Source: Pseudofrankia inefficax
GTDB lineage: Bacteria > Actinomycetota > Actinomycetes > Frankiales > Frankiaceae
Direction: 5' to 3'
DNA: 64,000 nt
NCBI RefSeq assembly: GCF_000166135.1
Contig: NC_014666.1
Coordinates: 6,200,001 to 6,264,000, forward strand
Below are positions 15,841 to 34,180 of the stretch, one piece after another. The notes beneath the pieces are model-generated. The model did not search any database, was not told where the DNA came from, and was given only the letters and a program-made list of their open reading frames with translations. The translations under genes were made by a program, and so were the position numbers. How positions within the stretch are numbered: the stretch's first letter is position 1; every line of letters starts with the position of its first letter.

Positions 15841-15855
15841 CGTATTCTTTATACG
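15841..15855. promoter_or_regulatory. Short AT-rich palindrome (tentative operator, site A)
   Basis: CGTAT and ATACG face each other across five bases, overlapping the 3' end of the hydrolase gene 45 bp before the dehydrogenase start. It does not share the ATCTAGAT core of the other island sites, so its membership in that set is doubtful. Confidence 0.3.
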
Positions 15856-16637
15856 ACTAAGGTCAGCCAGGCCGTGACGAGCGCGTTGAACTCGGCCGGC
15901 CGTTCCTGGTGCAGCCAGTGGCCCGCGCCCTCCCAGGTCACGACCCGGGAGCGCGGGTCGTCGAACAGGGCCCGCTCGGTCGCGGCCCGCGCCGGGTCCG
16001 CGTAGAAGGTCAGCACCGGGCAGCGCCGCCGCCGCAGGTAGGGCTCGCTCTGCGAGCGCAGCGCCATGCCGGACGTCTGCGCCTCCAGCGACTGGCGCAG
16101 CACGTGCGCGTCCATGCCCGCGATCCGGCGCAGCTGCCAGGTCCGCAGCGCCGGCTGCCGGGCCGCGGAGTCCATCCCGCCGCCCACGAGCTGCTGGACG
16201 AACGGGACCGGGTCGGCGTCGGCGATCAGGTCCAGCATCGGCTGGATACCACCGGCGATCTCGTCAGGGAACAGGTAGGCCGGGTCGACGGCGACGATGC
16301 CCGCGACGCGTTCGGGGTACTCCACGGCCAGGCCGCTGACCACGCTGCCGCCCATCGAGTGGCCCATCGCGACGACCCGCCCGACGCCGAGCTGGTCGAG
16401 CAGGCCGGCGAGGTCCTCGGCGAACTGGCGGGTCGTATAGCCCTTGGGCGGCGCGCTGGACCGGCCGTGGCCGCGCAGGTCGACCGAGATCACCCGTCGC
16501 GACGCGACGAACGACGGGAGCTGCCAGCTCCAGTCGTGCGAGTCGGCGGCGTAGCCGTGCACGAGCAGCAGCGGGAGGTCGCCCGCGCCCTCGTCCGTGT
16601 AGAACAGGCGGACGTCACCCACGTCGGCGAAAGGCAC
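15849..16637 (-). CDS. Alpha/beta hydrolase
   Basis: A 262-residue alpha/beta-hydrolase-fold protein. LLVHGYAADSHDW forms the oxyanion-side HG motif, the nucleophile elbow is GHSMGG with Ser94, and the catalytic His is in GAGHWLHQ near residue 245. Family members hydrolyse esters, C-C bonds of ring-cleavage products, or epoxides. Which applies here cannot be decided. A good CCTCC on the plus strand (GGAGG on the coding strand) precedes the start. Site B of the island operator lies about 20-35 bp upstream. The gene leads into the alcohol dehydrogenase at 14816, so an ester-to-alcohol-to-carbonyl order of reactions is plausible. Confidence 0.88.
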   Translation of the reverse strand: MPFADVGDVRLFYTDEGAGDLPLLLVHGYAADSHDWSWQLPSFVASRRVISVDLRGHGRSSAPPKGYTTRQFAEDLAGLLDQLGVGRVVAMGHSMGGSVVSGLAVEYPERVAGIVAVDPAYLFPDEIAGGIQPMLDLIADADPVPFVQQLVGGGMDSAARQPALRTWQLRRIAGMDAHVLRQSLEAQTSGMALRSQSEPYLRRRRCPVLTFYADPARAATERALFDDPRSRVVTWEGAGHWLHQERPAEFNALVTAWLTLVV

Positions 16638-16654
16638 CGGGCCTCCTCAAGCTG

Positions 16655-16672
16655 GATACATCTATAGCTTTC
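16655..16672. promoter_or_regulatory. Island operator, site B
   Basis: GATACATCTATAGCTTTC matches the ATCTA half and flanking AT bases of the island motif, but the palindrome centre is degenerate (ATCTATAG instead of ATCTAGAT). It lies about 27 bp upstream of the alpha/beta hydrolase start in otherwise GC-rich DNA. Confidence 0.5.
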
Positions 16673-16750
16673 CGCAGCGGGAGCCCATCGCGCAAGAGGT
16701 CCACTCCCCGGGCCGGGGCGTGGACGAGGCCGCCGGCCCGGTCGGCGCGG

Positions 16751-17875
16751 CTACGCCGGAAGGCCCTCGGCCTGGGCCGTCCGCGCGGGCGGGAGCAGCA
16801 CGGGCTTGACGACCTTGCCCGACAGCGAGGCCTCCTCGGCGGCGTTGATCTCGTCGAGCGGGAAGGTCTCGATCAGCTGGTCGAACGGGAACTCACCGGC
16901 CCGCCACCAGTCGATCAGCTGCGGGATGACGACCCGCGGGTCGGCGCCGCCCTCCAGGATCCCGGACACGGTCTTGCCGATGAGCGCGATCGGGTCGAGG
17001 GTGAGCGGCTCGGTCTGGATGCCGACCAGGCCGCAGTGGCCGCCCTGGCGCAGCGCGCTGATCGCGTTGCCGATGACGGTGACGTTGCCGGTCGTGTCGA
17101 AGCTGAACTCGGCCCCGCCGCCGGTCAGCGTCTGGACCTGCTGGACGAGGTCCGCGGCGGCCCCGTCGAGCACGTGGGTGGCGCCCAGCTCGGTCGCCAG
17201 CGCCAGCCGGTGGGCGTGCAGGTCGACGGCGATGATGGTCGCCGCGCCGACGGCCCTGGCCGCCATGATCGCGGCCAGGCCCACCGCGCCCGCGCCGAAC
17301 ACGACGAGGCTCGCGCCGGCCGGCACGGCCAGCTGGACCAGCACCGAGCCGGCGCCGGTCAGGATGCCGCACCCGAGTGGCCCCAGCTTCTCCAGCGGCA
17401 GGTCCTTGTCGACCACCACGACGTTGCGCTCCGCCGCGACACAGTGGGTCGCGAACGAGGACTGGCCGAACCAGCGGGACGCGATCTCGCCGCCGTCCGC
17501 GTCCCGCACCCCCGTGGTCCCGTCGGCCCGGCGCCCCAGCAGGTTGCGGAACAGGAACTGGTCGCAGTAGGGCGGACGGCCGCCGCGGCAGTTCGCGCAC
17601 TCGCCGCAGGTGTCGAAGGACAGCACGACGTGGTCGCCGACCACCACCCGCTCCACGCCGGCGCCGACGGCCTCGACCACCCCGGCGCCCTCGTGCCCGG
17701 TGATGATCGGGGGCGGCGAGAACGACGCGGCCTGACGCGGCACGACGTCCGTGTGGCACAGGCCCGCGCCGACCACGCGGACGAGCAGCTCGCCGGGCCC
17801 CGGCGGGTCGAGCTCGACCTCCTCCAGCACGTACGGCCCGTCAGCCCGGCGCAGCACCGCCGCGGTCATCTTCAT
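16751..17875 (-). CDS. Zinc alcohol dehydrogenase, aryl-alcohol/AdhC-like
   Basis: A 374-residue class-III-like zinc alcohol dehydrogenase. The catalytic zinc motifs are GLCHTD and GHEGAG, the structural zinc cluster is in CGECANCRGGRPPYC, and the Rossmann motif is VVFGAGAVGLAA. Length and motifs match benzyl/aryl-alcohol and formaldehyde-type dehydrogenases using NAD. The start at 17875 is chosen because GGAGG sits seven bases upstream; the open frame to 17926 would run through operator site C. It is divergent from the GntR regulator gene, and the gap between them holds site C. It probably oxidises an alcohol intermediate of the island pathway to an aldehyde. Confidence 0.9.
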   Translation of the reverse strand: MKMTAAVLRRADGPYVLEEVELDPPGPGELLVRVVGAGLCHTDVVPRQAASFSPPPIITGHEGAGVVEAVGAGVERVVVGDHVVLSFDTCGECANCRGGRPPYCDQFLFRNLLGRRADGTTGVRDADGGEIASRWFGQSSFATHCVAAERNVVVVDKDLPLEKLGPLGCGILTGAGSVLVQLAVPAGASLVVFGAGAVGLAAIMAARAVGAATIIAVDLHAHRLALATELGATHVLDGAAADLVQQVQTLTGGGAEFSFDTTGNVTVIGNAISALRQGGHCGLVGIQTEPLTLDPIALIGKTVSGILEGGADPRVVIPQLIDWWRAGEFPFDQLIETFPLDEINAAEEASLSGKVVKPVLLPPARTAQAEGLPA

Positions 17876-17907
17876 CGACCGACCTCCGCTCATCCCAACC
17901 CTTTTCC

Positions 17908-17923
17908 ATAGATATATATGTTT
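17908..17923. promoter_or_regulatory. Island operator, site C
   Basis: ATAGATATATATGTTT lies between the divergent alcohol dehydrogenase (about 33 bp from its start) and the GntR regulator (about 118 bp from its start). It shares the AT-rich body and the ATGTTTC flank with sites F and E, but its centre is ATATAT rather than CTAG. The position would let one protein control both the enzyme and the regulator. Confidence 0.55.
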
Positions 17924-18040
17924 CAATCACCGAGGGCCACCGACCGTCGGCATGTCCGGCCCGCTGGCGCCGAGGCGGCCCTCATCGGACGGTACGCTCA
18001 ACTGATCGTTTTGCTCCCGCCGATGGGGAAGGGGTCGAGC

Positions 18041-18817
18041 ATGGTGGCCGAGCGCCAGGGAGCCCGCGGCGGCGAGCGTCCCGGGCTTCGCGAGAAGCCG
18101 CAGCAGATCGCCGACGAGCTCCGGCGGCTGATCGTCACCGGGGAGCTGGCCGACGGCGAGTCCCTCGGGCACGAGCCCGACCTCGTCGAGCGGTTCGGCG
18201 TCTCCCGCCCGTCGCTGCGTGAGGCGCTGCGCATCCTGGAGGCGGAAGGCCTGATCACCGTCAAGCGCGGTGTGCTCGGCGGCATCGTCGTCCACCAGCC
18301 CAACGGCCGGATGACCGCGCGCACCGCGGCGCTGCTGCTGCAGGCGCGCAACGTGCCACTGGCCGATGTCTACGACGCCCGCGGGCTGATCGAGCCCGTC
18401 GCCGCCCGGCTGCTCGCCCAGTCCCGGTCCCGCCGGTCGGCGGCGGCCGAGCTGCGCCGGCTCACCGCCGAGCAGCTGGAGGTCATCGACGACCCCGACG
18501 CCTTCGGCCGGGCCAACTCCGCGTTCCACGCCCGGCTCGTCGAGCTGGCCGGGAACCAGACCCTGAGCATCGTCGCCGAGATGCTCAGCGAGATCGTCGC
18601 CCGCGCGGTCGCGGCCGTCAGCCAGCCGGACGACGGCAGGGACACCGCGGCGACCCGGGCCCGCGGCCTGCGCTCCCAGGCCCGGCTCGCCGCCCTCGTC
18701 GAGGCAGGGGACGCCGCCGCCGCCGAGACCCACTGGGCCGAGCACATGAAGGTCGTCGGGCGGGTGCTGGTCGCGCAACGCGCGAAGACCGTCATCGACC
18801 TGATGCAGCACTACTGA
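18041..18817 (+). CDS. GntR-family regulator with FCD domain
   Basis: A 258-residue regulator of the FadR subfamily. The N-terminal winged helix (about 15-85) shows the GntR pattern ADELRRLIVTGELADGESLG followed by LVERFGVSRPSLREALRILEAEGLI. The C-terminal FCD domain (about 95-240) is helical and has the His residues (FHARL, HWAEHMK) that usually bind a metal near the effector pocket. FCD regulators usually respond to organic acids or acyl-CoA and are often repressors of nearby catabolic genes. The ATG at 18041 has AAGGGG six bases before it. This is the only DNA-binding protein inside the island, so it is the best candidate to bind the repeated ATCTAGAT sites. Confidence 0.92.
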   Translation: MVAERQGARGGERPGLREKPQQIADELRRLIVTGELADGESLGHEPDLVERFGVSRPSLREALRILEAEGLITVKRGVLGGIVVHQPNGRMTARTAALLLQARNVPLADVYDARGLIEPVAARLLAQSRSRRSAAAELRRLTAEQLEVIDDPDAFGRANSAFHARLVELAGNQTLSIVAEMLSEIVARAVAAVSQPDDGRDTAATRARGLRSQARLAALVEAGDAAAAETHWAEHMKVVGRVLVAQRAKTVIDLMQHY

Positions 18818-18864
18818 GCGGCGCCCCGGCCCCGGACCTCGGCGCAACCCGTAGCGGCTCCGCG

Positions 18865-18881
18865 ATAAATCTAGATATATT
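18865..18881. promoter_or_regulatory. Island operator, site D
   Basis: ATAAATCTAGATATATT is a near-perfect palindrome centred on CTAG, about 74 bp upstream of the amidohydrolase at 18947, which heads a three-gene unit (amidohydrolase, crotonase, CoA ligase). Confidence 0.7.
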
Positions 18882-18946
18882 GCGGACCGACGGGATGGCG
18901 CCCGCGGGTGGACCACGGGCGGCTGGCGGCGGAGGTGTGGCCGATC

Positions 18947-20185
18947 ATGACCATTGCAGTGGACTCCCCGGAAGCGGGGTCATCGGCGCCCGACTTCCCG
19001 GTGTTCGACGTGGACAACCACCTGTACGAGACCGAGGACGCGCTGACCCGGCACCTGCCGGCCGCGCACCGGGACCTGTTCCGGTTCGTCGAGCTGAACG
19101 GGCGCAAGAAGCTGGTCGTGCGCAGCCTGCTGACCGAGTACATCCCGAACCCGACGTTCGAGGTGGTGGCCCGGCCCGGCTCGCACATGGCCTTCTACGC
19201 CAGCGAGAACACCGAGGGGAAGTCGCTGCGCGAGCTCGCCGGCAAGCCGATGCGGACCGTCCCGGCGTTCCGCGAGCCCGCCGCCCGCCTGGCGCTGATG
19301 GACGAGCAGGGCCTCGACACCTGCCTGATGTTCCCGACGCTGGCGAGCCTCATCGAGGAGCGGCTGCGCGACGACCCGAAGCTCACCGACGTCGCCATCC
19401 ACGCGTTCAACGAGTGGCTTCACGACGACTGGACCTACGACTACCAGGGGCGCATCTTCGCCACGCCGATCATCACGCCGACGACACCGGAGGCCGGTAT
19501 CCGTGAGCTGGAGACGGTGCTCGGGCGCGGGGCGAAGGTCGTCCTGATGCGCCCGGCGCCGGTCACCGGCTCGCGCGGGCCGCGCTCCCCCTTCCTGCCC
19601 GAGTTCGACCCGTTCTGGGCCCGGGTGCAGGAGTCCGGGGTCATCGTCGCCCTGCACGCCTCCGACAGCGGCTACCAGGAGTACCTCAACACCTGGGAGG
19701 GCCGCGACGGGGAGTTCGTCGCGTTCAAGCCCAAGACCTTCGCCTACGTGGCGGACGGTGGCCGCAGCATCCAGGACACGCTCGCCTCGGCGATCTGCCA
19801 CGGCATGCTCGACCGCTTCCCCCGGGTACGCCTGGTCAGTGTGGAGAACGGGGGCAGCTGGGTCGGCGTGCTGGCGAAGAACCTCGAGCTGACCTACAAG
19901 AAGATGCCGCAGGAGTTCCAGACCCACCCGTTGGAGCTGCTGCGGCGCAACGTGTGGATCAACCCGTTCTGGGAGGACTCGCTCGACGGCCTGATCGGCC
20001 TGATGGGGACCGACCGGGTCTGCTTCGGCTCGGACTACCCGCACGCCGAGGGCCTGGCCGAGCCGCTGTCGTTCCTCGACCGGATCACCGACCTTCCGCC
20101 GGCCGACGTCGAGCGGATCATGTCAACGAACCTCGCCGACCTGCTCGGCGTGACCCGGTCGGCCCCGGCGGCCGGGAAGGCCTGA
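18947..20185 (+). CDS. Amidohydrolase-2 family metal-dependent hydrolase
   Basis: A 412-residue TIM-barrel metal-dependent hydrolase of the amidohydrolase-2 group. The N-terminal motif is FDVDNHLYE (in place of the usual DxHxH), a central HA-SDSGY region follows, and the C-terminal FGSDYPHAEG carries the conserved Asp. Relatives act as hydrolases or as non-oxidative decarboxylases on cyclic or aromatic acids and are common in actinobacterial acid-degradation clusters. The start at 18947 has GGAGGTG nine bases upstream. The gene is followed closely by a crotonase and a CoA ligase, with operator site D in front. A second, smaller member lies at 26553. The reaction is not fixed by the sequence. 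Confidence 0.85.
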   Translation: MTIAVDSPEAGSSAPDFPVFDVDNHLYETEDALTRHLPAAHRDLFRFVELNGRKKLVVRSLLTEYIPNPTFEVVARPGSHMAFYASENTEGKSLRELAGKPMRTVPAFREPAARLALMDEQGLDTCLMFPTLASLIEERLRDDPKLTDVAIHAFNEWLHDDWTYDYQGRIFATPIITPTTPEAGIRELETVLGRGAKVVLMRPAPVTGSRGPRSPFLPEFDPFWARVQESGVIVALHASDSGYQEYLNTWEGRDGEFVAFKPKTFAYVADGGRSIQDTLASAICHGMLDRFPRVRLVSVENGGSWVGVLAKNLELTYKKMPQEFQTHPLELLRRNVWINPFWEDSLDGLIGLMGTDRVCFGSDYPHAEGLAEPLSFLDRITDLPPADVERIMSTNLADLLGVTRSAPAAGKA

Positions 20186-20261
20186 CCGCGCCAGCCGGCG
20201 GCACGGTTCCGCGCGGCCGGTTCCGCGCAGCCCCACCCCTTCACAGCGGGAGGTTCCCGGT

Positions 20262-21065
20262 ATGGGATTCCAGACGATCCAGTACGAGGTCGCCGACCGC
20301 GTCGCGACGATCACCTTCAACCGGCCGGACCGGCTCAACGCGCTGAGCCCCGCCATGATCGGGGAGCTGCGCCAGGCGTACGCCGACGCCGAGGCCGACG
20401 ACGACGTGTGGATCCTGCTGGTGACCGGCAACGGCCGGGCGTTCTGCGCGGGCGCCGACGTGGGCGAGATCCCCGCCGACGGCCGGGTGATCTACGACGA
20501 GCCGTACCTGTCGACGTTCGCGCAGTGGGAGGCGCCGCAGGAGGGCACCCCGCCGTTCCGGTCGATGACGAAGCCGATCCTGACGGCCGTCAACGGGCTG
20601 TGCTGCGGCGCCGGCCTGGACCTCGTCACCACCGGCGACATCGTGATCGCCTCGGACCGGGCCGAGTTCTTCGACCCGCACGTGAGCATCGGGCTGGTCG
20701 CGGGGCGCGAGACCGTCCGGCTGGCCCGGGCGCTGCCGACCACCGTCGCGCTGCGGATGGCGCTGATGGGCCGCCACGAGCGGATGTCCGCCCAGCGCGC
20801 CTACGAGCTGGGGCTGGTCTCCGAGGTCGTCGAGCACGACCGGCTACTGGAGCGGGCGCGGGAGATCGCGGCCATCGTCAACCGCAACGCCCCGCTGGCC
20901 GTGCGCGGCACCCGCCTGGCGATCCGCCGGGGCCTGGACCTGCCGATGTACGAGGCGGAGGTCATGGCCGAGACGTTCCGCGAGCGGGTCGTGCGCACCG
21001 ACGACGCCAAGGAGGGCCCGGCGGCGTTCCTCCAGAAGCGCCAGCCGGAGTGGAAGTGCCAGTGA
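20262..21065 (+). CDS. Crotonase (enoyl-CoA hydratase/isomerase family)
   Basis: A 267-residue crotonase-fold enzyme acting on a CoA thioester. The oxyanion-hole segments FCAGADVG and GLCCGAGLDL are present. By eye, neither glutamate of classical enoyl-CoA hydratase is kept: the first position reads Asp (GAGLDL) and the second falls at PHVSIGL. It may therefore be an isomerase, hydrolase or lyase rather than a hydratase. The ATG has a GGGAGG upstream. It lies between the amidohydrolase and the acyl-CoA ligase, in the same direction and with short gaps, and is probably one operon under site D. Confidence 0.88.
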   Translation: MGFQTIQYEVADRVATITFNRPDRLNALSPAMIGELRQAYADAEADDDVWILLVTGNGRAFCAGADVGEIPADGRVIYDEPYLSTFAQWEAPQEGTPPFRSMTKPILTAVNGLCCGAGLDLVTTGDIVIASDRAEFFDPHVSIGLVAGRETVRLARALPTTVALRMALMGRHERMSAQRAYELGLVSEVVEHDRLLERAREIAAIVNRNAPLAVRGTRLAIRRGLDLPMYEAEVMAETFRERVVRTDDAKEGPAAFLQKRQPEWKCQ

Positions 21066-21147
21066 CCGCAGCGAGCACGGAGATGACCATGGCCGACCCG
21101 GCAACCATCGACCCACGCCGCCCAGCCGCCTTAGCCCGGGCCGCCGC

Positions 21148-22872
21148 GTGACCGCCCCCGGCCAGACCAGGACGACGCCCGCCGACGCGCCCGCGGCCCC
21201 GCCCGGCCCGTCGACGGACTGGTCCCTGCCGGCACTGCTGGACGTGATCACCGACGCGGCGCCCGACCGGACGATGCTGGTCTGGGAGGACGTCCGGCGC
21301 ACCTACGCCGAGGTCCGGGACCGCACCCGCCGCCTCGGCGCCTTCCTGCGCGGCCGGGGTCTCGGCGCCCACCAGGAACGGGCCGAGCTGGAACGCTGGG
21401 AGTGCGGCCAGAGCCCGGTCGCGATCCTGCTGTCCAACTGCCCCGAGTACCTCGAGGCGATGATCGGCGCCTACCGGGCCAGGGCCGTGCCGTTCAACGT
21501 CAACCACCACTACAACGCCGACGAGGTCGGTGCCCTGCTGGCGGCCGTCGGCGCCGAGGCGGTCGTCTACCACCGCAGGCTCGGCCCGCTGCTCGCCGCG
21601 GCCACCTCGTTGGAAGGCCGGGTGCTGCTCGACGTCGACGACGGCTCGGGGGTCGCGCCGCTCACCGGCTCCACCCCGTACGAGCAGGCGCTCGCCGGGG
21701 TGAGCGACGCCGAGGTCGACGCGCTGCCGACGGCGTCGCCCGACGACCTCTACCTGGTCTGCACGGGCGGCACCACCGGTAAGCCCAAGGGGGTGCTGTG
21801 GCGGCAGGGTGATGTCTACGTCGCCGCCATGGGTGGCTTCGAGGGAGCCACCGCGGACCGGATCGCCGCCCTCGTGGCCGTGCCCGGCGGTCCTGGCGGG
21901 CCGCGGTCGCGCGGCGGCGTCTGGTTCGCCGTGCCGCCGCTCATGCACGGGGCCGCGCAGTGGACCGCGTTCGCCGGCCTCGCCCTCGGGGTCACCCTCG
22001 TGCTGCACGACGACAAGACCCCGTTCGACGCCGGCGCGATCCTCGCCCTCGCCGCCCGCGAGGGGGTCACCATGATGACGATCGTCGGCGACGCCTACGC
22101 CCGTCCCCTCGTGGAGGAGCTGCAGGCCAGGTCCCACGACCTGGCCGCGTTGACGAGCCTGAGCACCGGCGGGGCTACGACCAGCGCGGCTCTCAAGCAC
22201 GCGTTCCTGGAGCTGGTCCCGCACCTGACGATCGTCGACGGCTACGGCGCGTCGGAGACCGGCGGCATGGCGTTCGGCGCCTCGACGCGGGGCTCCGAGA
22301 CCCGGCAGTTCACCCTCGGCCCGGGCGGGGCCGTCCTGTCCGCCGACCGCTCGCGGTTCCTGGGCACCGACGAGGCCGAGATCGGCTGGACGGCCCGCAC
22401 CGGCCGGGTCCCGCTCGGCTACCTGGACGACGAGGACCGGACGGTGCAGACCTTCCCGATCGTCGACGGCCGGCGGATCACCGTCCCCGGCGACCGGGCC
22501 CGCTACGAGGCGGACGGCTCCGGGCGGATCGTCATGCTCGGCCGCGACTCGATGGTCGTCAACACCGGCGGGGAGAAGGTGTTCGTCGAGGAGGTCGAGG
22601 AGGCGCTGCGCCGCCACCCGGACGTCCTCGACGCCCTGGTCGTCGGCCGGCCCAGCGAGCGGTTCGGCCAGGAGGTCGTCGCCCTCGTCCAGCTGCGCCC
22701 GGGGGCCGCGCTGTCCCCCGCCGAGGTCCGTGAGTACGCGGCCCGGTCCGTCGCCCGGTTCAAGGCGCCGCGCGCGGTGCTGGTGTGCGAGACGATCGGC
22801 CGCCACGCCACCGGCAAGGCCGACTACACCTGGGCCAGAAAGGCCGCCCTGGACGCCGTGCCGGCCACCTGA
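21148..22872 (+). CDS. AMP-forming acyl-CoA ligase (FadD-like)
   Basis: A 574-residue ANL-superfamily enzyme. The P-loop is CTGGTTGKPKGV, the A5 region is DGYGASETGG, the hinge region contains GRDSMVVNTGGEKVFVEEVE, and the catalytic lysine is in ATGKADY. It activates a carboxylic acid with ATP and CoA. It resembles actinobacterial FadD-type ligases found in steroid and branched-acid clusters. The GTG at 21148 is 82 bp after the crotonase stop, and it is the third gene of the unit starting at 18947. It is one of four ligases in the island, which suggests several acid intermediates or substrates. Confidence 0.9.
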   Translation: MTAPGQTRTTPADAPAAPPGPSTDWSLPALLDVITDAAPDRTMLVWEDVRRTYAEVRDRTRRLGAFLRGRGLGAHQERAELERWECGQSPVAILLSNCPEYLEAMIGAYRARAVPFNVNHHYNADEVGALLAAVGAEAVVYHRRLGPLLAAATSLEGRVLLDVDDGSGVAPLTGSTPYEQALAGVSDAEVDALPTASPDDLYLVCTGGTTGKPKGVLWRQGDVYVAAMGGFEGATADRIAALVAVPGGPGGPRSRGGVWFAVPPLMHGAAQWTAFAGLALGVTLVLHDDKTPFDAGAILALAAREGVTMMTIVGDAYARPLVEELQARSHDLAALTSLSTGGATTSAALKHAFLELVPHLTIVDGYGASETGGMAFGASTRGSETRQFTLGPGGAVLSADRSRFLGTDEAEIGWTARTGRVPLGYLDDEDRTVQTFPIVDGRRITVPGDRARYEADGSGRIVMLGRDSMVVNTGGEKVFVEEVEEALRRHPDVLDALVVGRPSERFGQEVVALVQLRPGAALSPAEVREYAARSVARFKAPRAVLVCETIGRHATGKADYTWARKAALDAVPAT

Positions 22873-22927
22873 GCAGCGCCGTCGGGCCCCGGGCGGCGTG
22901 GAAACCGCCGGGGCCCGACACCCGGCC

Positions 22928-23768: not shown

Positions 23769-23786
23769 TTAGTATCTAGATATTTC
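23769..23786. promoter_or_regulatory. Island operator, site E (divergent)
   Basis: TTAGTATCTAGATATTTC, a palindrome centred on CTAG, lies 55 bp from the crotonase start on one side and 37 bp from the acyl-CoA dehydrogenase start on the other. One site could serve both promoters. Confidence 0.7.
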
Positions 23787-26468: not shown

Positions 26469-26521
26469 CCCCATCGCCCTTCTCGTCACGCGCGCCCAGC
26501 CCGGCGAGCCGTCGCCTCGTA

Positions 26522-26540
26522 GGTTATATCTAGATGTTTC
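26522..26540. promoter_or_regulatory. Island operator, site F
   Basis: GGTTATATCTAGATGTTTC, a palindrome centred on CTAG, lies about 63 bp upstream of the acyl-CoA dehydrogenase start at 26468 and just after the stop of the amidohydrolase gene. Confidence 0.7.
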
Positions 26541-26552: not shown

Positions 26553-27383
26553 TCACTCGGCCTTGGCGCGGTCGGCGAAGAAGAACGACATGGCGTTGTC
26601 GTGGAGCCAGGCCTGGCGGACCTCGTCGGTGAGGCCGAGGTTGGCCGCCTCGGCAAGGCAGCGCTCGAACGAGAGCACCGGGTGGTCGGAGGCGAAGATG
26701 ATTTTGTCCCGGCCCCGGGTCGACATGTAGTGCAGCAGCGAGGCGGGCAGCCGCTTGGGCGACCAGGCCGAGGTCATCAGCCGCAGGTTCCTGTACTTGA
26801 GCATCAGCCGGATCGCGGTGTCCCACCAGGGGTCGGCCCCATGGATCATGCAGAGCTTCAGCTCGGGGAACCGGTAGCAGACCCGGTCGAGGTAGATCGG
26901 GTTCTGGACCTCGCCGGGGATCGGCGGCCCGGGCAGGCCGGTGTTCATGCACAGCGGCAGGTCGAGCTCGCAGCACTTCGTGTAGAGCGGGTAGTAGACG
27001 GCGTCGGTGGGCGGGTACATCCCGTCGCCCCAGAAGCTCGGCCCGACGGTGGCCGTCGCGACGGGGTAGTCCCGGACGTACGACTCCAGCGTGCGCAGGG
27101 CCTTCATCGGGCGCAGCAGGTTGAAGGTGCCGATGGCGAGGGCGAACCGGTCGGGGCGCTGCTCGGCGTAGCGCGCGGCCCGGTCCGGCCCCTTGTTGGC
27201 CCGCGAGACCAGGATCGCCCGCTCGACCCCGGCGGCGTCCATCGCGTCGATCAGCTCGGGCAGCTCGGGGCTGTGGAAGAAGGAGGCGCCACCCTTGAAG
27301 TAGTCCTCCTTGACGCGCACCATCCACTCCGGCTGCTTGTCGTCGCCGAGGTGGACGTTGACCAGGCAGTCGATGGCCTTCAC
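26553..27383 (-). CDS. Amidohydrolase-2 family protein (short)
   Basis: A 276-residue member of the amidohydrolase-2 superfamily. It lacks the N-terminal HxH (the start reads IDCLVNVHLGD), but keeps an internal MIHGAD histidine and IIFASDHP aspartate. Related proteins include ACMSD-like decarboxylases and lactone hydrolases; the incomplete metal site makes activity uncertain. The GTG start overlaps the stop of the upstream CoA ligase by 4 bp, showing translational coupling. It is the last gene of a four-gene operon (crotonase, two CoA ligases, amidohydrolase) that starts near operator site G. Confidence 0.82.
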   Translation of the reverse strand: MKAIDCLVNVHLGDDKQPEWMVRVKEDYFKGGASFFHSPELPELIDAMDAAGVERAILVSRANKGPDRAARYAEQRPDRFALAIGTFNLLRPMKALRTLESYVRDYPVATATVGPSFWGDGMYPPTDAVYYPLYTKCCELDLPLCMNTGLPGPPIPGEVQNPIYLDRVCYRFPELKLCMIHGADPWWDTAIRLMLKYRNLRLMTSAWSPKRLPASLLHYMSTRGRDKIIFASDHPVLSFERCLAEAANLGLTDEVRQAWLHDNAMSFFFADRAKAE

Positions 27384-29059
27384 GCCGGCCTCACCTTCCG
27401 GGATCTGACGACACCCTGCTCCCGCAGGAGCCGGCGCAGCGCGCCGACGTCGGCCTTGCCGCTGGCCAGTCGTGGCACGGCGGCCGGGTCGGTCACCACG
27501 AGCCAGCGGGTCGGGACCTTGAAGCTGCTCAGCCGCGACCTGGCCTGCTCGGCCAGGCCATCAGGTCCGGCCATCGCCTCAGAACCGTCCGTGGCGCCGG
27601 GCGTCACGACGACCAGGGCGGCGACGTGGCGGTCGCCGGCCTCGTCCGCGACGTCGGTGACGAACGCCTCGCGCACCCCGGCCAGGCCGCGCAGCGCCGT
27701 CTCGACCTCCAGCGGGTACACGGTCGCGCCGCTGACCTTGAACATGTCGTCCAGCCGGCCCCGGTACCAGAGGTAGCCCTCGGCATCGAGCACCCCGGCG
27801 TCGGCGGTCGGGTAGAAGCCGTCGCGGTCGAACACGTTCGCCCGGTGGCGCCCGCAGATGCCGCGCATCAGGTGCGGCCCGCGCAGCCGGATCTCGCCCT
27901 CGGCACCGGGCGGCAGCGGCTCGCCGGTGGCCGGGTCGACGACGCGGACCTCGACGCCCGCGAAGGGCTGGCCGCAGCTGCCGTGCTTGCCCGCGGGCAG
28001 GTCGGTGTCGAGCCGGGAGCCGCAGTACGGGCCGAACGACTCGGTCATCCCGAACAGGTTCGCCCGCGCCCCCGCGGCGGGTCGCGCCGCCGCGGGCAGG
28101 ATCGCGCCGAGGCTGCCCGGCCGCAGCGAGGACAGGTCGACGGTCGGGAAGTCGGGGTGCGCCGCGAGCCGGGCCGCCTGGTCGGGCCAGCCGCGGAACA
28201 GCGTGACCCGCTCCCGTTCGAGGAAGCGCAGCGTGCGCCCGGGCTCCGGCTCCGCCTCGGTGAGCAGCGTGGCGCCGGCGACGAGCACGGAGAGCAGCCC
28301 GGCCCCGAACCCGCCGGTCCAGAAGAACGGCATCGGGATGTAGAGCCGCTCACCAGGGCCGACGCGCCGGGCGTCCAGGCTGCTGGCGACGGCGCGCAAC
28401 GCGTTGCCGTGGGTGTGCAGCACGCCCTTCGGCCCGCCCGAGCTGCCCGAGGTGAACAGGACGACGAGGTCGTCGGCCGGCCTGACCACCCGTTCGAGCG
28501 CGTCGACCAGCTCGGCCGGGGCGGCGGCCGCGGGCAGTTCGTCCGGGGTCCAGACCGCGCGCAGCGACGGCACGGCCGGCTGCCGGCCGCCCGCGCGCAG
28601 GCGTTCGGTCAGGCCCGGCACCTCGGCGTCCAGCTCGGCGCGGTAGTCACGGCCGCGGAAGGCCGGCACCACGACCAGCTCGGTGACGGCCGCGGCGCGC
28701 AGCTGCGCGACCAGCTCCGGCGGGCGCAGCAGCGTCGACAGCGGGACGAGCACCGCGCCGAGCCTGGTCACGGCGAGCGCGTGCACCGCCCAGCCCACGC
28801 CGTTCGGCATCACCAGGCCGACCCGGCTGCCCTTGCCGACGCCGGCGGCCACCAGCCGGGCCGCGAGCGCCCGGCTCGCGTCGTCGAGCTCCCGGTAGGT
28901 GACGGCGTCGTCGTCGCCGACCAGCGCCCGCAGGTCGGCGTCCTCGCGCCGCCGGACCGCGAGCAGGCCCGGGATCGTCAGCGCTTCCGGGATCGTCAGC
29001 GGTCCCGGGGGCGTCAGCGGTTCCCGGATCGTCGGCGCCGCGGGCTCAGCGGGCGGCAC
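27380..29059 (-). CDS. AMP-forming acyl-CoA ligase
   Basis: A 559-residue ANL enzyme with the P-loop FTSGSSGGPKGVLHTH, a NLFGMTESFG A5 motif, YRGRLDDMFKVSG, and the catalytic lysine in LASGKADV. It forms an acyl-CoA from acid, ATP and CoA. The GTG at 29059 has AAGGAG seven bases upstream and overlaps the end of the previous ligase by 14 bp; the longer open frame back to 29251 is spurious. Its close paralogue immediately upstream suggests a local duplication. The N-terminal 20 residues carry a Pro/Thr-rich stretch with an LTIPEALTIP repeat. Confidence 0.9.
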   Translation of the reverse strand: MPPAEPAAPTIREPLTPPGPLTIPEALTIPGLLAVRRREDADLRALVGDDDAVTYRELDDASRALAARLVAAGVGKGSRVGLVMPNGVGWAVHALAVTRLGAVLVPLSTLLRPPELVAQLRAAAVTELVVVPAFRGRDYRAELDAEVPGLTERLRAGGRQPAVPSLRAVWTPDELPAAAAPAELVDALERVVRPADDLVVLFTSGSSGGPKGVLHTHGNALRAVASSLDARRVGPGERLYIPMPFFWTGGFGAGLLSVLVAGATLLTEAEPEPGRTLRFLERERVTLFRGWPDQAARLAAHPDFPTVDLSSLRPGSLGAILPAAARPAAGARANLFGMTESFGPYCGSRLDTDLPAGKHGSCGQPFAGVEVRVVDPATGEPLPPGAEGEIRLRGPHLMRGICGRHRANVFDRDGFYPTADAGVLDAEGYLWYRGRLDDMFKVSGATVYPLEVETALRGLAGVREAFVTDVADEAGDRHVAALVVVTPGATDGSEAMAGPDGLAEQARSRLSSFKVPTRWLVVTDPAAVPRLASGKADVGALRRLLREQGVVRSRKVRPA

Positions 29060-30686
29060 GCAGCAGCTCCTTGAGGGCGGGCATGTCGATCTTGCCGCTG
29101 GACATCGTCGGCACCTCGTCGTCGGCGAGCAGGACGAACCTGCGCGGCACCTTGTAGGAGGACAGCCGCGCGGCGAGCTGACCGCGCAGCTCGTCGGCGT
29201 CGACACCCCGGCCGGACGGCACCCGGACCGCCGCCGCGACGATCTGCCCACGCGCCGGGTCCTCCAGGCCGACGACGTGCGCGGTGAGCCCCGCGACGTC
29301 GCGGATCACCGCCTCGACCTCGCTCGGCGACACGTTCGCGCCGCCGGTCTTGATCATGTCGCCACGCCGGCCGTGGAAGTAGTAGAAGCCCTCGTCGTCG
29401 ACCGCGAACAGGTCTCCGGTGTGGAACCACCCGTCGGCGTCGAACACCTCGTGACGTTCCCTGCCGTAGTAGCCCTCCATCAGGAACGGGCCCCGCAGCC
29501 ACAGCTCCCCCACCGCGCCGACGGCGCAGGCGGAACCGTCCGTGTCGACGACCCGGGCCTCCAGGCCCGGCGCGGGCGGCCCGAACGAGCCGCGGCGCCG
29601 CTCCGGCTGGTCGCCCTCGTCCGCGCTGACCAGGCAGACGCTGCCAGCCTCGGTCATCCCGAGCATCTGGTGGCGCCGCAGCGGGTCGGCGGGCCGGACG
29701 TCGGCCGGCATGATCGAGTACAGGTTGCCGCGGCGGATCGAGGACAGGTCCCGGCGGGCGAAGGTCGGGTCGTTCGGCAGGCCCGCCACCGACTGGGCGT
29801 AGCCGTTCACCATCGTCGGGCGCTCCCGTTCGAGCACGTCGAGCACACCCGCCGGATTCGACGCGTTCGAGCACACCAGCCGGGCACCGGCCACCAGTGT
29901 GCCGAGCAGCGCGTAGGCGAAGCCGCCGACCCAGAAGAACGGCGAGTTCGAGAAGAGCGACTCCTCGGGGGTGTAGCGGCGGATCTCGTTCAGGTTCGCC
30001 AGATGCCGGATCAGCGCGCCCTGGGTGTGGATCACGCCCTTCGGCGCGCTCGTCGACCCGGACGTGTGGACGATGACCATCCGGTCGCTCGGCGCGAGCG
30101 ACTCCTCGACCGCCAGCACGAGGTCGTCGTCCACCGTGTCGCCGTGGCGCGCGAGCGCGGCGAGGGTCCGGCCCGGCCCGACCCGGCCGTCGTCGGCGCC
30201 CGCGCCTTCGGCGAAGAACACGTGCCGCAGCACCGGCATCGACGCGGCCAGCAGCGGCCCTTCTCCCTGGAGGTCAAGCTCGCCGGCGGCCGAGCCGAGC
30301 GCGGCGACGTAGTCGTGGCCGCGGAAGCCGCGCGCCGCCAGCAGCACCCCGACGTCCGCGTTGGACAACAGCCCACGCAGCTCCGCGCTGGTCGAGAACG
30401 TGCTCAGCGGGACGGTCACCGCGCCGACCCGGGCCGCGGCCAGCCAGCCGACGACGAAGTCGCTCCCGTTCGGGAACAGCAGCCCGACGTGGGTCCCCCG
30501 GGCGACGCCAAGGGCCAGCAGGCCCCGGGCCAGCTCCCGCGAGCGCCGGTCGGCCTCGGCGTAGGTGAGGACGTCGTCGTCGGACGCCAGCAGCACCCGC
30601 GGGCCGTACTGGGCGGCCCGCTCGCGCAGCAGGGCAGCGACCGTCAGCGGTAAGCCGTCCTCGGCCTCGATCGTCGTGGAGATCAT
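29046..30686 (-). CDS. AMP-forming acyl-CoA ligase
   Basis: A 546-residue ANL enzyme: P-loop VHTSGSTSAPKGVIHTQ, A5 motif QMLGMTEAGS, GRRGDMIKTGGANVSPSEVE, and catalytic lysine in MSSGKIDM. It is related to the downstream ligase at 27380 and, less closely, to those at 21148 and 31587. It should activate a carboxylic acid; the chain or ring type is not evident. The ATG lies two bases after the stop of the upstream crotonase and no clear ribosome site is seen, so translation is likely coupled. It is the second gene of the site G operon. Confidence 0.92.
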   Translation of the reverse strand: MISTTIEAEDGLPLTVAALLRERAAQYGPRVLLASDDDVLTYAEADRRSRELARGLLALGVARGTHVGLLFPNGSDFVVGWLAAARVGAVTVPLSTFSTSAELRGLLSNADVGVLLAARGFRGHDYVAALGSAAGELDLQGEGPLLAASMPVLRHVFFAEGAGADDGRVGPGRTLAALARHGDTVDDDLVLAVEESLAPSDRMVIVHTSGSTSAPKGVIHTQGALIRHLANLNEIRRYTPEESLFSNSPFFWVGGFAYALLGTLVAGARLVCSNASNPAGVLDVLERERPTMVNGYAQSVAGLPNDPTFARRDLSSIRRGNLYSIMPADVRPADPLRRHQMLGMTEAGSVCLVSADEGDQPERRRGSFGPPAPGLEARVVDTDGSACAVGAVGELWLRGPFLMEGYYGRERHEVFDADGWFHTGDLFAVDDEGFYYFHGRRGDMIKTGGANVSPSEVEAVIRDVAGLTAHVVGLEDPARGQIVAAAVRVPSGRGVDADELRGQLAARLSSYKVPRRFVLLADDEVPTMSSGKIDMPALKELLRAAR

Positions 30687-30688
30687 GA

Positions 30689-31495
30689 TCAGCGGCCGCC
30701 GAACTTGGGCTCGCGCCGCTCCTGGAAGGCCGCGAGCCCCTCCCGGAAGTCGCCGGTGCGGGACGACAGCTCCAACGCGTAGGCCTCCTGCTCCATCGTC
30801 TCGGCGAGCCCCAGCTCCAGGCCCCGGTTGACCGACCGCTTGGTCAGCCCGACCGCGACGGTCGCGGCCTGGCCGAGCTCGGTGACCAGGTCGGTGGTCG
30901 CGTCGTCGAGGTCGGCGTCGGGCACCGCCCGGTAGATCAGCCCCCAGTCGGCGGCCTCCCGGCCGGACAGCCTGCGCCCCAGGATGAGCAGCTCCTTCGC
31001 CCGCGCGATGCCGACCAGCCGGGGCAGCAGCCAGGTGGCGCCGCTGTCCGGGCTGAAGCCCCGGGCCAGGAACGGCTCCCAGAAGCGGCTGGTCTCGGCG
31101 GCGACGGTGAAGTCCGCCGCCAGCGCCAGCTGGAACCCGAGCCCGGCCGCGTGCCCGCGCACCGCGCAGACGACGGGCAGCTGGAGCTCGGTGATCAGCT
31201 GGACGAGCCGGTGGGCCTGCAGGGCCGTGCGCCGTTGCACGCTGCCCGTCCGCGGCCGCTCGCCGCCCTTGGTGTTCGACGCGACCCAGTCGGCGCCGGA
31301 GCAGAAGTCCGGCCCGAGGCTGGACAGCACGACGACCCGCAGCCCGTCGTCGACCGCCGCGTCCTCGAGGGTGGCGATCAGCAGGCGGACCGTGGCGGGG
31401 GCGAGCGCGTTGCGGCGTTCCGGGCGGTTGAGGCCGATCCGCAGCACGCCGCCGTCGCGTTCGACGACGATGCCAGCGGCCGTGGCGGAATCCAT
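30689..31495 (-). CDS. Crotonase, PaaG/isomerase-like
   Basis: A 268-residue crotonase: oxyanion segments DFCSGADW and GHAAGLGFQLA, then LARGFSPDSGATWLLPRLVG. The hydratase glutamates are absent, and an Asp in SPDSG sits at the PaaG/enoyl-CoA isomerase position, so double-bond isomerisation or ring chemistry is more likely than hydration. An ATG at 31495 is used; GTGs at 31504 and 31507 are alternatives and none has a clear ribosome site. It is the first gene of the operon running to 26553, with operator site G about 35-53 bp upstream. Confidence 0.88.
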   Translation of the reverse strand: MDSATAAGIVVERDGGVLRIGLNRPERRNALAPATVRLLIATLEDAAVDDGLRVVVLSSLGPDFCSGADWVASNTKGGERPRTGSVQRRTALQAHRLVQLITELQLPVVCAVRGHAAGLGFQLALAADFTVAAETSRFWEPFLARGFSPDSGATWLLPRLVGIARAKELLILGRRLSGREAADWGLIYRAVPDADLDDATTDLVTELGQAATVAVGLTKRSVNRGLELGLAETMEQEAYALELSSRTGDFREGLAAFQERREPKFGGR

Positions 31496-31529
31496 GTCGT
31501 TCACCACGGCGATGGTATCGAGGCGGCCC

Positions 31530-31548
31530 TAAAATATCTAGATGTATT
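31530..31548. promoter_or_regulatory. Island operator, site G
   Basis: TAAAATATCTAGATGTATT, a palindrome centred on CTAG, lies about 35-53 bp upstream of the first gene (31495) of the four-gene crotonase-ligase-ligase-amidohydrolase operon, and just past the stop of the ligase at 31587. Confidence 0.7.
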
Positions 31549-31586
31549 GGCGCCCGCGCCGGACGGCGCCCCAGGACCGGGCCTGG

Positions 31587-33122
31587 TCACGCCAGTACGT
31601 CGGGCGGCAGCAGGCGGCGGGCGACCTTGCCGGTGGGCAGGCGCGGGAACTCGTCGAGGAACCGGACCGAGCGCGGCGCCTTGAACCGGGCGAGGTGCTC
31701 GCGGGCGTAGGCGATGAGCTCGGTCTCCAGCGCCGCCGGGTCGGCCGGGGGGCTCGCGGGCTGCACGACCGCCCGCACCGACTCGCCCATCTCCGCGTCG
31801 GGGACGCCGATGACGACGACGTCCGCGACCCGCGGATGGCGGACCAGGACGTCCTCCAGCTCGCGCGGGTAGATGTTGACGCCACCCGAGACGATCATGT
31901 TGGTGGCGCGGTCGGTCAGGTAGAGGTACCCGTCGGCGTCGACATGGCCGATCTCGCCGTAGGTGGCCCAGCCACGGTCGTCGAACACCGAGGCAGTCTT
32001 CTCGGCATCGCCGTGGTATTCAAAGCGGCGCGCGGCCTCGAAGAAGACCCGGCCGTCGGCGCCGGCCGGCAGCTCCTCGCCCGCCTCGTCCACGATGTGG
32101 ACCTTGCCCTGCATCGAGCGGCCGACGGAGCCCGGGTGGGCCAGCCACTCCTCGGGCCCGATGAAGCAGAAGCCGACGCCCTCACTGCCGGCGTAGTACT
32201 CGTAGACGATCGGGCCGAGCCACTCCAGCACCGCCCGCTTGACGTCGACCGGGCACGGCGCCGCGGCGTGGACGAGCGTCTTCAGGCTGGACAGGTCGTG
32301 GCGGGCCCGCTCCTGCTCGGGGAGCTTCAGCAGCCGGACGAGGTGGGTCGGGACGACCTGGGCCATCGTGACCCGGTGGCGCTCGATCGTCTCGAGGAAG
32401 TCGACGGGCTCGAACCGCTCGGTCAGCACGACCGTCGCGCCGATCCGGTGCATGGCGTTGGTCCAGCCCGACGGCGCCGCGTGGTAGAGCGGAGCGGGGC
32501 TCAGGTAGCGGGTGTTCTCGTCGCCGCCGAACAGGAACCGGACCATCGCCGTGAACCCCATCGGCGTGCCCAGCGGGCCACCGACCTCGGGCGGCTTGAT
32601 GCCCTTGGGACGGCCGGTGGTGCCCGACGAGTAGAACATCCAGGCGCCGTCCGCCTCGTCGTCGATCGGTGTCGACGGGTAGCCGGCGGCGACCTGCTCG
32701 TACGGCTCGAACCCCTCGATCGGCCCGCCGACGGACAGCCGGATCTTCGGGCCGGCGCCGGCCAGCTCGGCCACCACGTCGGCGCAGGACGCGGAGGCGA
32801 TCAGCGCGTCGGCGCCGCAGTCCTCGACGATGTAGCGGGCCTCGGCGCCGGACAGGTGCCAGTTGATCGGCGTGACCAGCAGGCCGGCCCGCAGCCCCGC
32901 CCAGGTGATCTCGAAGTACTCGGCCCGGTTCTCCATCAGCACCGCGATGTTGGCGCCGACGCCCAGTCCGGCCGCGCGCAGCGCGTGCGCGAGCCGGTTC
33001 GACCGCGCCTCCAGCTGCGCGTAGGTGACCGTGACGTCCCCGGCGATCACCGCGGGCCGGTCCGGCGCCACGGCGGCGAACCACTTCGGATGCTCGAGCT
33101 GCGTCCCCACTGTCTCTTCCAC
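31587..33122 (-). CDS. AMP-forming acyl-CoA ligase
   Basis: A 511-residue ANL enzyme: P-loop FYSSGTTGRPKGI, A5 motif EYYAGSEGVG, LTDRATNMIVSGGVNIYPRE hinge, catalytic lysine in LPTGKVAR. After the P-loop it has the KPPEVGGPLGTP insertion often seen in actinobacterial ligases. It activates an organic acid as its CoA thioester. The GTG start lies 10 bases after the stop of the crotonase gene at 33133, so the two form a unit. This unit has no ATCTAGAT site close in front; the nearest is site H, about 205 bp upstream of the crotonase. Confidence 0.9.
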   Translation of the reverse strand: MEETVGTQLEHPKWFAAVAPDRPAVIAGDVTVTYAQLEARSNRLAHALRAAGLGVGANIAVLMENRAEYFEITWAGLRAGLLVTPINWHLSGAEARYIVEDCGADALIASASCADVVAELAGAGPKIRLSVGGPIEGFEPYEQVAAGYPSTPIDDEADGAWMFYSSGTTGRPKGIKPPEVGGPLGTPMGFTAMVRFLFGGDENTRYLSPAPLYHAAPSGWTNAMHRIGATVVLTERFEPVDFLETIERHRVTMAQVVPTHLVRLLKLPEQERARHDLSSLKTLVHAAAPCPVDVKRAVLEWLGPIVYEYYAGSEGVGFCFIGPEEWLAHPGSVGRSMQGKVHIVDEAGEELPAGADGRVFFEAARRFEYHGDAEKTASVFDDRGWATYGEIGHVDADGYLYLTDRATNMIVSGGVNIYPRELEDVLVRHPRVADVVVIGVPDAEMGESVRAVVQPASPPADPAALETELIAYAREHLARFKAPRSVRFLDEFPRLPTGKVARRLLPPDVLA

Positions 33123-33132
33123 GGGGCCGCCG

Positions 33133-33957
33133 TCAGCGACCGTTGGAGGAGGGCTTCGCGAGCTGCTCCTTCATGCCGTCGAGCAGCATGAGGATCGGCA
33201 TGCCGCTCTCGGACAGCGCGTGGCCGTGGCCGGTCTGGTGGATGTCGAAGACCGACTGGACCGCCGCGTAGAAGCCCTGCACGTCGAGCGTCTGGTTGAC
33301 GGCCCGCTTGGCCTGGCGCAGCGCGAACGGATGCTTGGTCGCGATCTCGGCCGCGAGCGCCCTGGTCGCCTCGCGCAGGTCCGCCAGCGGGACGACCCGG
33401 TTGACCATGCCGACGCGCTCCGCCTCGTAGGCGTCCATCTTGCGGCCGGTGAACAGCAGCTCCTTGGCCTTGCGCGGGCCCATCTCCCAGGTGTGGCCGT
33501 GGTACTCGACACCGCCGATGCCCATGTTCACGACCGGGTCGGAGAACGTGGCGTTGTCCGCGGCGATGATCAGGTCACAGGGCCAGGCGAGCAGCAGGCC
33601 GCCGGAGATGCACACGCCCTGGACGGCGGCGATCGACGGCTTCGGCACGTTGCGCCACCGCAGGCTGTACTCCAGGAACCGACGAGACTCGATCTCGTAG
33701 ATCCCCTCCAGCGTCCACTTCGGCGGCGCCCCGTTCGACTCGCCGCCGACACCCTTGATGTCGTGGCCGGCGGAGAAGTGCCTGCCGTTGGCCTGCAGGA
33801 TGATGACCCGGACCTCGGGGTCGTCGGCGGCCCGCCGCCACGCGGCGTCCAGCTCGTCGAGCAGCTCCAACGTCTGGGCGTTGGCTGCCTCCGGCCGGTC
33901 CAAAGTGATGGTCGCGACCGCGTCGCTGACCTCGTAGTCGATGAACGTCTTCGTCAC
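33133..33957 (-). CDS. Crotonase (unusual active site)
   Basis: A 274-residue crotonase: oxyanion segments HFSAGHDIKG and GVCISGGLLLAWPCD. The region that usually holds the second catalytic glutamate reads PVVNMGIGGVEYHGHTWEMG, unlike either hydratases or PaaG, so a different reaction is likely. The HDIKG motif resembles long actinobacterial EchA proteins. The GTG at 33957 is supported by GGAGG six bases upstream. It is the first gene of a two-gene unit with the ligase at 31587 and is divergent from the crotonase at 34238. A 9-bp inverted repeat and site H lie in the gap. Confidence 0.88.
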   Translation of the reverse strand: MTKTFIDYEVSDAVATITLDRPEAANAQTLELLDELDAAWRRAADDPEVRVIILQANGRHFSAGHDIKGVGGESNGAPPKWTLEGIYEIESRRFLEYSLRWRNVPKPSIAAVQGVCISGGLLLAWPCDLIIAADNATFSDPVVNMGIGGVEYHGHTWEMGPRKAKELLFTGRKMDAYEAERVGMVNRVVPLADLREATRALAAEIATKHPFALRQAKRAVNQTLDVQGFYAAVQSVFDIHQTGHGHALSESGMPILMLLDGMKEQLAKPSSNGR

Positions 33958-33983
33958 GACCGGCCTCCAGGACTGTCGAGCAC

Positions 33984-34019
33984 GGCGTTGTCTCGATTGA
34001 CGCCGATGGGGACAACGTC
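33984..34019. promoter_or_regulatory. Inverted repeat upstream of the crotonase-ligase unit
   Basis: GGCGTTGTC (33984-33992) and GACAACGTC (34011-34019) pair at 8 of 9 positions with an 18-base spacer, 27 bp before the crotonase start. It could be an operator different from the ATCTAGAT type, or part of the promoter. No regulator can be assigned. Confidence 0.3.
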
Positions 34020-34161
34020 GCGCAAGCGGTCAGAGGTCCGCGCGCCGTGTGAGGAGCAGGTGCTGGCCGCGACGCCGCGCCGGCGGCCGGTCGAGGCCGG
34101 CACGCCACCGCGCGTCACCCCTGAGCGCTTCGCACTGCGGCGATGCTAGCCAGCGACCCCA

Positions 34162-34180
34162 CTAATGTCTAGATATATAC
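34162..34180. promoter_or_regulatory. Island operator, site H
   Basis: CTAATGTCTAGATATATAC, a palindrome centred on CTAG, lies about 67 bp upstream of the crotonase at 34238 in the divergent gap shared with the crotonase-ligase unit. It is the rightmost member of the set. Confidence 0.7.

Follow-up and report, generated by a model that had tools for sequence, protein, structure and literature searches.

An 18-bp palindrome, GAWAYATCTAGATRTWTC, lies in seven copies (B to H) between the genes of a catabolic island of Pseudofrankia inefficax, and we consider it probable that it is the operator of the GntR/FCD-type regulator encoded in this island at 18041-18817 and of its paralogues, a dimer of which would repress transcription and would be released by an acyl-coenzyme A (acyl-CoA) or a related acid. 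The island is part of the stretch called here the window, 64,000 nucleotides at 6.200-6.264 Mb of a genome that forms a single contig of 8,815,781 bases. The sites, their clustering across the genome, their conservation and their co-occurrence with one clade of GntR proteins were computed, and the best reading of these results is a new, dispersed repressor regulon of the FadR/FCD type of GntR regulators, predicted from sequence.

The palindrome marks intergenic sites of the island

Five strong copies, D to H, had been reported in the initial annotation and were recovered at the same places, with the core ATCTAGAT at 18869, 23774, 26528 and 31536 and GTCTAGAT at 34167. All seven sites are intergenic (Table 1). 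The gene caller places site E within a gene because its chosen start lies too far upstream, and the acyl-CoA dehydrogenase beside this site more plausibly starts at 23814. When WWATCTAGATRTWT was searched on both strands with up to three mismatches, 13 matches were found in the window, every one at sites B to H, while 0.20 were expected from shuffled windows (standard deviation 0.53; maximum 2 in 100 shuffles).

A symmetric 18-bp matrix was trained on 18 sites of the P. inefficax genome, including D to H and excluding B and C. Against a first-order background, 1.25 hits per Mb are found at a score of 12 bits, falling to 0.75 at 14 bits. The sites scored 23.8 (B), 23.3 (C), 35.3 (D), 30.5 (E), 33.4 (F), 36.2 (G) and 27.7 bits (H), and nothing else in the window reached 13 bits. 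Because B and C, which had been called weaker, were outside the training set, their recovery by the matrix is independent. An inverted repeat, CGTATTCTTTATACG, at window positions 15841-15855, the 3′ end of the alpha/beta-hydrolase gene, is AT-rich but scores below 13 bits and is not this operator.

The same sites recur at other loci of the genome

The motif is not confined to the island. At least five other loci of the genome are marked, and the regulon proposed in the initial annotation was too narrow, since the predicted regulon covers at least six loci. Matches to WWATCTAGATRTWT with up to two mismatches cluster at 1.67, 3.26, 4.74, 5.23-5.29 and 6.22-6.23 Mb, with one more at 4.815 Mb. 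In the whole genome, two mismatches gave 29 and 24 matches versus 9 and 8 for the reversed pattern used as control, and one mismatch gave 13 and 11 versus 0 and 0. Ten further 20-kb loci were picked because each contains a loose or core match; the numbers of matrix matches in them were 8 at 13 bits, two at 19 bits and one at 25 bits. The core ATCTAGAT alone proved too loose a criterion; among exact cores at 1856360, 2561633 and 3997362, only that at 2561633 reached 13 bits (13.2).

The gene scan outside the window covered 27 of the genes that face a site within about 225 bp. Nineteen of them are CoA-pathway, oxygenase/oxidoreductase or amidohydrolase genes, two encode solute-binding proteins, two are kinase-like and four are other genes. 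Many matches far from catabolic genes had been named at the outset as evidence against the regulon, and these 19 of 27, which are a partial answer, are of catabolic type. The site-facing gene set resembles those for steroid or terpenoid side-chain and ring degradation. Among the NCBIfam matches listed for the window and the other site-facing proteins, no equivalog that would give a pathway name reached its cut-off; the matches above cut-off were PRK07798, PRK08290 and Rv3169 for window proteins and TIGR01930, PRK08252 and TIGR03617 for the others. In the sister cluster (G000:C1:5210001-5310000; L013-L017), APH/EcKL kinase-like genes stand behind the operator, and five pairs of sites are 71-223 bp apart.

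Conservation of the sites at homologous genes

Conservation was analyzed in 29 segments from the 14 genomes that carry this clade of GntR proteins (1.02 Mb, 83% coding), where 176 matches of at least 13 bits were found, 168 of them intergenic according to the gene caller; several segments were picked around gntR or known sites, so this density is not a genome average. A site precedes all 13 listed homologues (at least 60% identity, itself included) of the crotonase at 34238, which follows operator H, and three of these homologues are from Acidimicrobiia. For operator G, a site is present at 8 of the 11 listed homologues, again counting the gene itself. Operator E has counterparts at crotonase homologues in genomes G001, G002 and G026 and in L108, and operator F at acyl-CoA dehydrogenase homologues in G001, G002, G004 and G005, with none in G006 and G026. 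The best hits of targets in the P. inefficax genome were targets in 115 of 253 cases, compared with 71 of 296 for non-targets.

The 256 possible 8-mer palindromes were ranked in intergenic DNA after removal of the segments chosen for motif matches. ATCTAGAT was first both in the other Frankiaceae segments (18 versus 0.19 expected) and in Acidimicrobiia (7 versus 0.02 expected); with the removed segments, its counts were 21 and 10, respectively. The comparison with relatives, suggested as a check in the initial annotation, was thus favorable to it, with operators conserved before orthologous genes and the same palindrome around homologues in another class.

The candidate regulator and its co-occurrence with the palindrome

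The window GntR protein has an N-terminal winged helix-turn-helix (wHTH) domain (PF00392, 2.4e-16) and a C-terminal FCD domain (PF07729, 5.2e-16), both above cut-off. Eighteen other matches to it were found in the genome, one of which is close (84%, the next being 41%), and the gene of this paralogue, at 5295479, lies 1.4 kb past the point where the sites of the largest cluster (5.23-5.29 Mb) end. Among solved structures, the sequence of the window protein matches best that of 2DI3, named LldR of C. glutamicum in a published survey (PMC4494728). The recognition helix FGVSRPSLREALRILE is identical in all 34 rows of the clade. Many FCD domains bind metal through D, H, H and H. Compared with 2DI3, the D of the D..FH motif is replaced by N and one H by Q in 34 of 34 clade rows, so that two of the four usual ligands differ from those of the FadR subfamily. 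These replacements may point to an altered metal site and to an effector that is not a small carboxylate. Autoregulation is not the rule, since 7 of the 30 listed gntR homologues have a site of at least 16 bits within 200 bp upstream, and for this reason site C mainly fits the Zn dehydrogenase.

The clade was defined by E < 1e-70, the next homologues in the family being at 2e-48, and it is present in 14 of 35 family genomes. With one mismatch on both strands, these 14 genomes contain 24, 8, 24, 17, 7, 12, 15, 23, 3, 11, 15, 16, 5 and 7 matches to the motif, and the 21 genomes without the clade contain 0-3; the reversed-pattern control gave 0-4 throughout. The two ranges meet at 3 (G014 with the gene, G015 without), and the difference was significant by the Mann-Whitney test (P = 4e-7, relatedness not corrected for). 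Two contrasts run against phylogeny: G007, of the same genus, lacks the clade gene and has 0 matches, and G031, alone of the 13 genomes of genus g6, has the gene and 7 matches, the other 12 having 0-1. The earlier proposal of one regulon under the GntR/FCD gene is therefore supported as a prediction by the 84% paralogue beside the largest other cluster and by presence and absence across the 35 genomes, as well as by the conserved operators at orthologous genes and the same palindrome near homologues in another class.

Acidimicrobiia and a possible variant operator

Named relatives are Frankia, Parafrankia and Pseudofrankia strains and four metagenome-assembled genomes (MAGs), three of which are labelled Acidimicrobiia or Acidimicrobiaceae. 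The gene is present in 6 of 296 genomes of the class of G542. Among eight Acidimicrobiia loci with a 60-70% identical GntR, five have at least one intergenic site of at least 25 bits. Near the gene, sites of at least 15 bits numbered five in 60 kb of G542, seven in 40 kb of G777, five over three 20-kb stretches of G628 (one of the six carriers and the contig of MAG L109, from which the class name is taken), six in L108 and one in L110 (G642). Every one of these sites is intergenic, and the expectation is at most 0.31 per stretch. All seven pattern matches of G542 (4) and G777 (3) are on the gntR contig.

Genome G552 encodes a 52% identical GntR relative, and the 40 kb around its gene contain seven matches of at least 15 bits (0.93 expected). 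Four of the seven read ACCTMTANAGGT (G552:C1:4825695-4841727; L130, L131), and their main departure from the window operator is a single pair in each half-site. In this genome, the five one-mismatch matches to WAYACCTCTAGAGGTWT are all confined to 4.826-4.842 Mb, next to the gene, which is at 4.826 Mb; with three mismatches 8 of 13 are in this interval, the total of 13 not exceeding the 14 of the reversed control. Because WAYACCTCTAGAGGTWT was drawn from the same stretch, the result is only a lead. A natural shift of specificity in this relative is possible.

Promoter geometry and mode of action

The median distance from site to target start is 70 bp. On 153 de-duplicated gene-facing sides, TANNNT boxes concentrate behind the 18-bp site at +3/+4 (17 occurrences) and at +13/+14 (13 occurrences), compared with a largest count of 7 for any neighbouring pair of offsets in 1000 shuffles, and the two preferred distances are one helical turn apart. 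At operator G, a -10-like TACCAT box is found 13 bp beyond the site. The two preferred distances suggest repression by promoter occlusion: read as -10 boxes, the TANNNT boxes would put the centre of the site near -24 or -34, within the stretch covered by the polymerase, a position that speaks for repression.

In the model proposed here, binding, repression as opposed to activation, effector and substrate are all inferred. A GntR dimer would bind the palindrome overlapping the -35 element or the spacer of the promoters (centre at about -24 or -34 in those promoters for which a -10 box is assignable), and the bound dimer would block transcription. Release of GntR is ascribed to an intermediate of the pathway, for which an acyl-CoA, or a related acid, of a polycyclic, terpenoid or steroid-like substrate is the likeliest candidate, and this release would switch the scattered units on together.

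Several points weigh against this reading, beginning with the choice of segments mentioned above. Homologues of the crotonase at 30689 in G542, in G777 and one of those in G014 have no site, nor do homologues of the crotonase at 22928 in G003-G006 and G014. Two clade gntR genes stand in stretches with no site at 13 bits, one of 40 kb (G008:C3:345001-385000) and one of 20 kb (G023:C337:15001-35000). In Acidimicrobiia, G572 has one weak site (18.5 bits), G605 (4.7 kb) and L111 (11.8 kb) have none, and the six carriers have genome-wide pattern totals of 4, 3, 1, 0, 0 and 0; since many AT-rich non-carriers match pattern and control alike, the class counts by themselves do not separate carriers. 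A -10-like box at a preferred distance occurs on at most 30 of the 153 gene-facing sides, and a lower peak is also present on the sides that face away (9 and 4 of 129). The helix FGVSRPSLREALRILE is shared by the 52% relative, whose sites differ, so the helix alone does not set the motif. Finally, any regulator moving with the islands would co-occur with the motif, and the comparison with rival regulators covered only the MarR gene considered below.

Other explanations of the sites

Activation by GntR from the same sites is unlikely. Sites with a -10 box at +13 would centre near -34 and could replace a -35 element; however, positions around -24 and -34 overlap with the footprint of the polymerase, the binding site of an activator usually has its centre at -41.5 or further upstream, and the sites are close to start codons. 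Much less probable is that another nearby regulator binds the palindrome, for example the product of the MarR gene at 36398-36841. In its favour, AT-rich palindromes are frequent targets of MarR proteins, the gene stands 2.2 kb away from site H, and 11 of the 14 motif-rich genomes carry it. Against it, no match at E 1e-15 was found in the motif-bearing G014, G017 and G031 (with G031 88% complete, the gene may have been missed there), G012 has a 50% identical homologue and zero motif matches, and the other site clusters have no close paralogue in their vicinity, the next match within the P. inefficax genome being at E 4e-8. As it is unmatched in three motif-bearing genomes, MarR was set aside as an unlikely general regulator.

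That the sites represent a dispersed repeat, or what is left of duplicated islands, and not operators is hardly credible. The two gntR copies of the genome are 84% identical and some target genes are paralogous, but the shared stretch is only about 16-18 bp with different flanks, the sites are symmetric, 168 of 176 matches of at least 13 bits are intergenic though 83% of the DNA is coding, and the same palindrome is found again in a second class. An origin by chance, as AT-rich palindromes of promoters, can be dismissed: promoter gaps are AT-richer than genes, and the reversed pattern at two mismatches still gives 9 and 8 matches versus 29 and 24, but the 13 matches versus 0.20 expected in the window, the one-mismatch control of 0 and 0 versus 13 and 11 and the first rank of ATCTAGAT among 256 palindromes in relatives already exclude chance.

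Relation to known regulators

Like the window protein, members of the FadR subfamily (FadR, LldR, PdhR, NanR) combine a GntR wHTH with an FCD domain, and the survey cited above describes operators that are palindromic and lie in divergent gaps and ahead of catabolic units, as found here (PMC4494728). The same survey gives TKGT/ACMA boxes for the FadR subfamily, with BioR and NanR as exceptions, and the consensus NyGTMTAKACNy for HutC (PMC4494728). The window operator differs in having no TKGT/ACMA boxes, and the matrix of 18 sites has A/T in place of GT/AC; since these boxes are usual but have exceptions, their absence does not remove the protein from the subfamily. Residue 28 of the window GntR is presumably Pro, judging from an alignment of the helix with that of FadR. 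This residue is not sufficient as the cause of the missing GT, as a clade member, L080, has Arg and is still among canonical sites. In FadR, Arg at residue 28 contacts G, according to the survey (PMC4494728). By its domains, the window protein is a FadR-subfamily regulator, with an operator that appears atypical and a predicted regulon that differs in being dispersed over CoA-pathway units.

KstR and KstR2 of actinobacteria control steroid regulons, belong to the TetR family and have other operators. Theirs is likewise a wide regulon including CoA ligases, acyl-CoA dehydrogenases, crotonases, P450, KshA_C and ChsH2-type genes; in contrast, the regulator co-occurring with the present sites is of the GntR/FCD and not the TetR family, and no steroid equivalog reached its cut-off among the matches listed. 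HutC-type regulators have their own effector domain, not the FCD of the window protein. The dre site of DasR/NagR shares the centre, GT-CTAG-AC fitting the HutC consensus of the survey (PMC4494728) as opposed to AT-CTAG-AT here, so its G/C pairs are A/T in the window operator. Among the matches listed from the open-licence literature, neither this operator nor a fitting regulon in Frankiaceae was found. Hits with the letters of ATCTAGAT beside GntR (PMC5425828, PMC3917455, PMC5377504) were, in the passages concerned, cloning primers with an XbaI site.

A wider proposal, possible but doubtful in our judgment, is that the sites belong to a modular master regulon that is mobile and that serves, in Frankiaceae and Acidimicrobiia, an undescribed pathway for the catabolism of polycyclic (steroid- or terpenoid-like) compounds. 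Its FCD-type GntR repressor would sense an acyl-CoA and not a metal-bound carboxylate and would read a GT/AC-free operator, and the 52% relative would have shifted towards ACCTCTAGAGGT, chiefly by one base pair per half-site. For many unassigned CoA-pathway enzymes of Frankiaceae and uncultured Acidimicrobiia, the analysis proposes a regulator and supplies a matrix of its predicted operator together with a list of candidate targets. Once genes with a common operator are assigned to a single pathway, the substrate of that pathway becomes searchable. The analysis also offers a case of an FCD regulator that may read a non-canonical operator, and of how such specificity may shift.

Genes of the island

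The gene inventory given in the initial annotation was found to hold for four CoA ligases, five crotonases, two Amidohydro_2 proteins, two acyl-CoA dehydrogenases and two Zn dehydrogenases, and needed three corrections. It had omitted the alpha/beta hydrolase at 15849-16637; the second Zn dehydrogenase (14816-15796) is outside the range given for the island and has no site of its own; and the protein at 35286 called unknown belongs to the Rv3169 family.

Table 1. Predicted operators and genes of the island (window positions), and genes facing sites elsewhere in the genome
Feature	Position	Strand	Remark
Operator B (predicted)	16655..16672	.	26 bp before alpha/beta-hydrolase start
Operator C (predicted)	17907..17924	.	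40 bp before Zn-alcohol dehydrogenase start; ~125 bp before gntR
Operator D (predicted)	18864..18881	.	before amidohydrolase/crotonase/CoA-ligase unit; identical 18 bp in G001 and G002
Operator E (predicted)	23769..23786	.	divergent gap, crotonase(-)/acyl-CoA dehydrogenase(+)
Operator F (predicted)	26523..26540	.	57 bp before acyl-CoA dehydrogenase(-)
Operator G (predicted)	31531..31548	.	32 bp before crotonase/CoA-ligase/CoA-ligase/amidohydrolase unit(-)
Operator H (predicted)	34162..34179	.	67 bp before crotonase/Rv3169-family unit(+); 213 bp from divergent crotonase/CoA-ligase unit(-)
Alpha/beta hydrolase	15849..16637	-	
Zn-dependent alcohol dehydrogenase	16751..17875	-	best NCBIfam match NDMA-dependent alcohol dehydrogenase, under cut-off
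GntR/FCD regulator, proposed repressor	18041..18817	+	PF00392, PF07729
Amidohydro_2 protein	18947..20185	+	
Crotonase	20262..21065	+	
Acyl-CoA synthetase	21274..22872	+	PRK07798 subfamily, above cut-off
Crotonase	22928..23722	-	
Acyl-CoA dehydrogenase	23814..25124	+	
Acyl-CoA dehydrogenase	25326..26474	-	
Amidohydro_2 protein	26553..27383	-	
CoA ligase	27380..29059	-	
CoA ligase	29046..30686	-	
Crotonase	30689..31507	-	
CoA ligase, FadD4-like	31587..33110	-	FadD4-like match under cut-off
Crotonase	33133..33957	-	PRK08290 subfamily, above cut-off
Crotonase	34238..35233	+	
Rv3169-family protein	35286..36401	+	family of unknown function
Site-facing genes	1.67 Mb		DAP_DH_C protein, acetyltransferase, siderophore-interacting protein, ion channel; catabolic role less obvious
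Site-facing genes	3.26 Mb		crotonase, DapB/DAP_DH_C-type protein, Amidohydro_2
Site-facing genes	4.74 Mb		flavin monooxygenase divergent from P450; Amidohydro_2 divergent from RibD_C protein
Site-facing genes	4.815 Mb		thiolase; protein with ChsH2-type and thiolase-like domains
Site-facing genes (1)	5.23-5.29 Mb		two each of crotonases, acyl-CoA dehydrogenases, CoA ligases, luciferase-like monooxygenases
Site-facing genes (2)	5.23-5.29 Mb		Rieske/KshA_C oxygenase, short-chain dehydrogenase, two periplasmic binding proteins, two kinase-like proteins

Immediately outside the island lies the MarR-family regulator gene considered above.

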